A DNA stretch of 64,000 nt from an uncultured Pelagibacteraceae bacterium (lineage in GTDB: Bacteria > Pseudomonadota > Alphaproteobacteria > Pelagibacterales > AG-422-B15), in NCBI GenBank assembly GCA_902624455.1, contig CACNXQ010000004.1, positions 1 to 64,000 of the forward strand, in the 5' to 3' direction. Both the position numbers and the translations under genes were made by a program. Shown one piece after another: positions 1,602 to 2,146 of the stretch (position 1 is its first letter; each line of letters begins with the position of its first letter). The notes under the pieces are model-generated. The model worked only from the letters and a program-made list of their open reading frames with translations, did not search any database and was not told the origin of the DNA.

Positions 1602-1649
1602 TCTAAAAAAAAGATTTATTAATAAAGCAATCAACAAATTTACCTCTTT

Positions 1650-1693
1650 TGGGTTAAATTGGGATTACATGGGATAGTATGGGATATATTGGG
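1650..1693 (+). promoter_or_regulatory. MraZ operator: five TGGG repeats at exact 10-bp period
   Basis: TGGG occurs at 1650, 1660, 1670, 1680 and 1690 on the plus strand (CCCA on the mraZ coding strand), each start exactly 10 bp from the next, with AT-rich spacers. MraZ of Escherichia coli is known to bind direct TGGGN repeats with 5-nt spacers, i.e. the same period, upstream of mraZ. The array lies just upstream of mraZ, so autoregulation of an mraZ-ftsZ transcript is the natural reading. Confidence 0.85.
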
Positions 1694-1702
1694 TATTGTC
1701 TA
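1674..1702 (-). promoter_or_regulatory. Putative sigma-70 promoter of mraZ-ftsZ
   Basis: On the minus strand TAGACA (1702-1697; 5 of 6 to TTGACA) is followed after exactly 17 bp by TACTAT (1679-1674; 4 of 6 to TATAAT). The spacer and the -10 contain three of the five MraZ repeats, so bound MraZ would cover the polymerase site. Transcription would begin near 1667, about 65 nt before the preferred mraZ ATG. This is pattern-based and not proven. Confidence 0.55.
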
Positions 1703-1782: not shown

Positions 1783-2146
1783 AATGCCAGATAATTTGTA
1801 AGCCGGGTTCTGTAATTTTTAAGAAAAAATTGATGACTATTCATCTAGTTTGCATGTTACCAAGCAAATCATGCGACCAACCCAGTTACGGCCAAGACTA
1901 GCCATTGTAACTCTATTCGATCTTGCTCCTGGTGGGGTTTACCATGCCTTTTTTGTTACCAAAAAAGCGGTGAGCTCTTACCTCACCTTTTCACCCTTAC
2001 CCTTAGTAATTTCAATTAGGGCGGTTTATTTTCTGCGGCACTTTCCCTAGGGTCACCCCCGCCGGGCATTACCCGGCACCATCGTCTTGTGGAGCCCGGA
2101 CTTTCCTCTTTCATAGAAAGCAGTCATCCAATTATCTGGCAGCTTC
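1783..2146 (-). ncRNA. rnpB: RNase P RNA (bacterial type A)
   Basis: This is the catalytic RNA that trims the 5' leader of pre-tRNAs. The minus strand carries GAGGAAAGTCCGGGCTCC near the 5' end and CAGAACCCGGCTTAC near the 3' end, the universally conserved core strands of bacterial RNase P RNA. P1 is a perfect 12-bp helix formed by 2130-2141 and 1785-1796, which fixes the ends to within a few bases. A run of seven T (minus strand, 1784-1778) follows P1 directly, so P1 plus the U tract can act as the terminator. The gene lies 11 bp beyond the amidase stop; its promoter must be inside that gene. Any open frame here is an accident of the RNA gene. Confidence 0.96.

Follow-up and report, generated by a model that had tools for sequence, protein, structure and literature searches.

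Genes and features at the mraZ locus

The window, i.e., the whole stretch of 64,000 nucleotides that was analysed, was the first part of contig C4 (108,725 bases), from a SAR11-order genome of 1.32 Mb whose nearest named relatives were Pelagibacteraceae single-cell genomes such as AG-337-G06 and AG-422-N09. At its beginning lay the RNase P RNA gene rnpB, mraZ and the truncated ftsZ, with five TGGG boxes and a predicted promoter between rnpB and mraZ (Table 1). The gene rnpB was the upstream neighbour of mraZ also in SAR11 relatives and in the other Alphaproteobacteria checked.

Table 1. Features at the mraZ locus, in window coordinates. Family refers to the SAR11 family of the genome.
Feature	Position	Strand	Evidence
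ftsZ, second in the operon, truncated at the contig end	1..1124	-	Pfam Tubulin and FtsZ_C
mraZ from the canonical ATG (1601-1599), 150 aa	1149..1601	-	Pfam MraZ, E=1.3e-17; PDB MraZ chains
Probable 12-codon N-terminal extension of MraZ from TTG 1637 (second TTG at 1634), preceded by a GAGG ribosome-binding site	1602..1637	-	Open reading frame; inference
MraZ box 1, TGGG, about +15 to +18 from the predicted transcription start	1650..1653	+	23/25 distinct family sequences
MraZ box 2, TGGG	1660..1663	+	Invariant in 25 distinct family sequences
MraZ box 3, TGGG, directly downstream of the -10 hexamer	1670..1673	+	Invariant in 25 distinct family sequences
Predicted -10 hexamer TACTAT, occupying all of the 6 bp that separate boxes 3 and 4	1674..1679	-	TA(N)3T in 30/30 distinct family sequences
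MraZ box 4, TGGG, directly upstream of the -10 hexamer	1680..1683	+	Invariant in 25 distinct family sequences
MraZ box 5, TGGG, within the promoter spacer near the -35	1690..1693	+	All family sequences except one
Predicted -35 hexamer TAGACA	1697..1702	-	T[AG]GACA in 25/25 distinct family sequences; TTGAC there in the sister family
rnpB (RNase P RNA, class A), upstream of mraZ in the same direction	1783..2139	-	Rfam RF00010, 326 bits

The mraZ product displayed the two AbrB-like domains of MraZ transcription factors, each with the D-x-K-G-R motif. The aligned arginine was kept in both halves of the protein, R17 and R93 being invariant across two orders. The Pfam match (PF02381) fell on the second half, and MraZ chains from the PDB (1n0e, 9sx6, 9qlg and 9qlr) matched over residues 4-134; no paper associated with the newer MraZ entries was found in the open-licence literature.

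Translation of mraZ in the family probably starts upstream of the canonical ATG, at one of the two TTG codons, which would add a hydrophobic N-terminus of 12 residues (LLIILITNFF..). In 25 distinct family sequences, the interval between the first TTG and the ATG, both included, measured 39 nt throughout and contained no stop codon, and the GAGG was invariant as well. The ATG itself was without an evident ribosome-binding site.

A five-box array interleaved with the predicted promoter

Five TGGG boxes in exact 10-bp steps were all found as the initial annotation had claimed, on the non-coding strand of mraZ. Dinucleotide-preserving shuffles gave an expectation of 0.01 per window for three phased copies, and the TGGG and CCCA counts of the window one of about 1e-9 for five. 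Throughout the 1.32-Mb genome, the sole array with at least three boxes was the one directly upstream of mraZ.

As in the E. coli operator, the array consisted of direct repeats with a TGGG core and a 10-bp period; it was located immediately upstream of mraZ, at the head of the dcw cluster, and its phase was conserved in related genomes. Its strand orientation was opposite to that of the characterised E. coli operator, but orientation is a lineage feature and not a stated defining one, so that it does not speak against membership among MraZ operators.

The predicted promoter, read on the minus strand, combined the -35 and -10 hexamers with a 17-bp spacer. A bare match of this kind occurred at chance level in such AT-rich DNA (2 found, 2.1 expected in shuffles), and the promoter call therefore relies on conservation: both hexamers, 16-18 bp apart as in sigma-70 promoters, were kept among relatives. 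The predicted start lay near 1667, with boxes 1 and 2 downstream of it and boxes 4 and 5 in the spacer between the -35 and the -10. The promoter first annotated was thus present, but its spacer and -10 held two boxes (4 and 5) and not the three that had been counted; likewise, the -10 was flanked by boxes 3 and 4, with no box inside the hexamer.

Conservation of the array in SAR11

The five-box array was retained across the family. Five exact boxes were present in 32 of the 35 SAR11 relatives with upstream sequence, and four in the remaining three, with the phase kept; the proposal that a true operator should be phased in sister genomes was thereby borne out. Boxes varied less than gaps: an alignment of 25 distinct family sequences showed no variation at 18 of 20 box positions, versus 13 of 24 gap positions, and the mean majority frequency was 0.99 in boxes versus 0.89 in gaps. 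Box spacing was constant in these sequences save for one 1-nt deletion within box 1 (L211). Box 1 was the most frequently lost, with a substitution in L198 in addition to this deletion, while the exception at box 5 was L216, with ACCA on the coding strand. Spacers of 16-18 bp upstream of the gap-filling TA(N)3T were found in all 30 distinct family sequences.

Fewer boxes were found in the sister family of the same order (three in 16 of 19 sequences, two in 3 of 19). There, a TTGA(C) -35 was located 16-18 bp before a gap-filling TA hexamer in 17 of 19. Judged from these alignments, five boxes are a stable trait of the SAR11 family and not an exceptional amplification.

Box number and strand across Alphaproteobacteria

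Phased arrays upstream of mraZ were widespread in the class. Among the mraZ regions of 100 other Alphaproteobacteria, drawn evenly across families, 86 showed at least two exact phased CCCA (three in 27, four in 30 and five in 9). At least three phased CCA were also found in 86 of the 100, versus 0.15% of shuffles. An array of five had been initially described as unusually long, a claim that did not hold. When CCA alone was required, 34 of the 100 upstream regions had at least five boxes, and a whole-genome scan of 387 complete Alphaproteobacteria returned five exact boxes in 25, one of which was a microsatellite, leaving 24 of MraZ type. By both the exact and the relaxed counts, five boxes are within the normal range.

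The strand of the array differed between lineages. No coding-strand array of at least three boxes was found in the mraZ upstream regions of the 100 Alphaproteobacteria. E. coli K-12 displayed the expected operator, with three TGGG at period 10 (592, 602 and 612 of L034) on the coding strand of mraZ. Among 28 Pseudomonadota outside the class, at least three phased TGG were on the coding strand in 21 and on the other strand in one. With alphaproteobacterial arrays on the non-coding strand (86/100) and those of other Pseudomonadota on the coding strand, the Alphaproteobacteria are thus inverted relative to the others. In a Chlorobiaceae locus (L234) the array also appeared to be on the coding strand, as judged by eye. 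Many boxes outside Alphaproteobacteria read GTGGT or GTGGA. A search confined to open-licence papers returned none describing the inverted layout with its embedded promoter or the register shift of SAR11.

Register of promoter and boxes

Two registers of boxes and promoter were distinguished in Alphaproteobacteria. Most arrays followed the pattern CCCA-TTGACN-CCCA-N6-CCCA-TGNTAT-CCCA, in which one gap is taken up by the -35, and the -10, TATCCC, runs into the next box with a TGn upstream (TTGAC-N17-TATCCC). In the SAR11 type, it is the -10, TA(N)3T, that occupies a gap, with the -35 moved upstream by 3 bp. Automatic best-promoter scoring took competing AT-rich sites in some family genomes, and counting was anchored instead. 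Counted in this way, 72 of 99 other Alphaproteobacteria showed the common type and one the SAR11 type. The SAR11-type register was found in all 30 family sequences, in 17 of 19 from the sister family and in 11 of 13 from f9, a neighbouring one-family order that includes AG-349-G20, AG-901-J22 and TMED13. Locus L011 of the sister family retained the common register.

An AT-rich alphaproteobacterium (locus L147 of genome G083, a single contig of 1,410,127 bases) displayed an array in degenerate form, in which TTTACA-N17-TATAAT stood in the SAR11-type register, but retained the mraZ-rsmH order. Published transcription starts lie 268 nt upstream of mraZ in R. sphaeroides, 170 nt in S. meliloti and at most 70 nt in C. 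crescentus (PMC5089854).

Compared with the initial annotation, what is added here on sequence grounds is the apparently class-wide inverted architecture with its embedded promoter, and the register shift in SAR11.

Gene order in the dcw cluster

The order mraZ-ftsZ-rsmH was found in SAR11 and f9 wherever it was readable (L036, 15157-15353), except in an f9-like MAG (L193) with mraZ-rsmH-ftsZ. In the other Alphaproteobacteria sampled, rsmH was next after mraZ wherever the next gene could be typed, and ftsZ was between them in none.

As mraZ was directly followed by ftsZ, a collapsed cluster reduced to these two genes, as in mollicutes, was considered and rejected: the 3' end of ftsZ, located at the end of contig C2, was followed there by an intact rsmH-ftsL-ftsI-mur and the rest, and the contig break fell within the ftsZ linker. 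The mraZ-ftsZ transcript initially annotated was consistent with this order as regards ftsZ being next after mraZ, but the transcript is probably longer, with rsmH, ftsL, ftsI and mur genes in the same direction.

Assembly breaks about 1.2 kb downstream of mraZ, in the C-terminal linker of ftsZ, were observed in many independent family assemblies (L020, L022, L025, L028 and others). The linker contained a 48-bp tandem repeat in one relative (L037), while none was called in another (L039).

The placement of SAR11 is disputed. A tree of MraZ and RsmH grouped f9 with SAR11 (support 0.92), the long branch of L147 included, a grouping that is weak because the genomes concerned are AT-rich. The presence of ftsZ between mraZ and rsmH may be a rare genomic marker for this placement.

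We cautiously favour a history in which the operator was turned over in Alphaproteobacteria and fused with the promoter, the -35, -10 and boxes being held in a fixed register; SAR11 and the neighbouring order of small genomes would later have undergone a 3-bp shift of this register, acquired a -10 ending in T and moved ftsZ beside mraZ.

Proposed function and alternative explanations

MraZ forms rings composed of several AbrB-like subunits. The array is very likely the autoregulatory operator of MraZ, encoded by the first gene of the SAR11 dcw operon, and MraZ bound to it would block sigma-70 RNA polymerase and lower transcription. The operator interleaved with its promoter that the initial annotation had proposed is consistent with the phase being kept in sister genomes, in the SAR11 order and upstream of mraZ throughout the class. 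Neighbouring MraZ subunits would probably each contact one TGGG box, and all contacts would be on one face of the helix since the boxes are one helical turn apart. MraZ on the boxes would occlude the polymerase at roughly -26 to +18 from the predicted start, and this occlusion would lower transcription of mraZ-ftsZ-rsmH-ftsL-ftsI-mur. With boxes flanking the -10 and also lying in the spacer, steric occlusion would be the simplest mechanism.

Experimental work on other bacteria is in line with an operator at this place. According to Eraso 2014, as cited in PMC8475190, MraZ of E. coli binds the MraZ boxes that precede the dcw cluster and acts as a repressor. In B. cenocepacia, MraZ binds in gel shift a promoter fragment with four 7-nt repeats and 3-nt spacers (PMC7761207), and MraZ of M. 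genitalium represses its division cluster (PMC8475190).

Occlusion of the promoter has to be weighed against a mainly positive or dual action of MraZ at the operator, or an elongation roadblock formed at boxes 1 and 2. These two boxes are downstream of the predicted start, as are most of the E. coli boxes (about -5, +6 and +16), and M. gallisepticum overexpressing MraZ had more FtsZ (Fisunov 2016, as cited in PMC8475190), so that lineages may differ in whether MraZ activates or represses. In most Alphaproteobacteria, however, the -35, -10 and boxes share the same DNA in a fixed register, which suits direct occlusion, and we regard activation or a roadblock as unlikely. Still less credible is control of transcription by a G-quadruplex of the GGG tracts on the template strand, with MraZ binding as secondary, although the window sequence (GGG-N7-GGG-N7-GGG-N7-GGG-N7-GGG), with five G3 tracts, fits the G3N1-7 rule at its upper limit, and a G-quadruplex in the mraZ promoter of S. 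aureus has been demonstrated and tied to ligand sensitivity (PMC11796246). Conservation of at least four G3 tracts did not extend across relatives: the sister family had two or three and the neighbouring order mostly two, too few for an intramolecular structure, yet phase and position were kept. Moreover, many arrays across the class keep CCA without the first C of CCCA, which is the third G of the tract, many boxes outside the class end in GGT or GGA, and a G-quadruplex needs neither an invariant 10-bp period nor a conserved T before GGG. A G-quadruplex as conserved primary function was therefore rejected, as sister clades with two or three tracts keep the phase. A periodicity arising in the promoter by chance or from its composition, without a regulator, would agree with the AT-rich intergenic DNA and with a bare promoter match at chance level, but has a negligible probability given the expectation calculated above for five phased copies and the conservation of the array across family, order and class.

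Few bacterial regulators are as widely conserved as MraZ, while to our knowledge its operator has been characterised in only a small number of species. In the present survey, the operator took two architectures or more: in the E. coli type the array is on the coding strand and mostly downstream of the -10, and in Alphaproteobacteria it is on the non-coding strand and encloses the promoter. The survey also predicts testable promoter coordinates for many species. SAR11 are abundant ocean bacteria with few transcription factors. For them, the survey suggests that one division operon is intact and presumably autoregulated, with ftsZ relocated towards its beginning; if true, the move beside mraZ would put ftsZ under the most direct control by MraZ.

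Comparison with known MraZ operators

Among the closest characterised counterparts is the E. coli Pmra, which shares with the window the AbrB-like MraZ and the TGGG boxes at an exact 10-bp period directly upstream of mraZ. Boxes 3, 2 and 1 of the window are at about -6, +5 and +15 from the predicted start, versus -5, +6 and +16 in E. coli, where the 5' UTR of mraZ is 38 nt (PMC5089854). Whereas E. coli carries its boxes on the coding strand, downstream of the -10, those of the window are on the non-coding strand and reach upstream through the -10 and the spacer; the box context also differs ([AT]TGGG versus GTGGG in E. coli). The B. cenocepacia PmraBc has the same period of 10 and, like the window, more than three boxes, but its site is downstream of the -10 over the start, as in E. 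coli, whereas the window array encloses the -10. Mollicute sites are direct repeats as well (AAAGTG[T/G] in the mraZ promoter), with a box sequence different from that of the window; in M. genitalium, as here, the repeat array occurs once in the genome (PMC8475190). The window array resembles the other alphaproteobacterial mraZ arrays, with the same strand, three to five boxes and an embedded promoter; it differs from most of them, in which the -35 is in a gap and the -10 TATCCC follows a TGn, by the gap-filling SAR11 -10 and the -35 displaced 3 bp further upstream.
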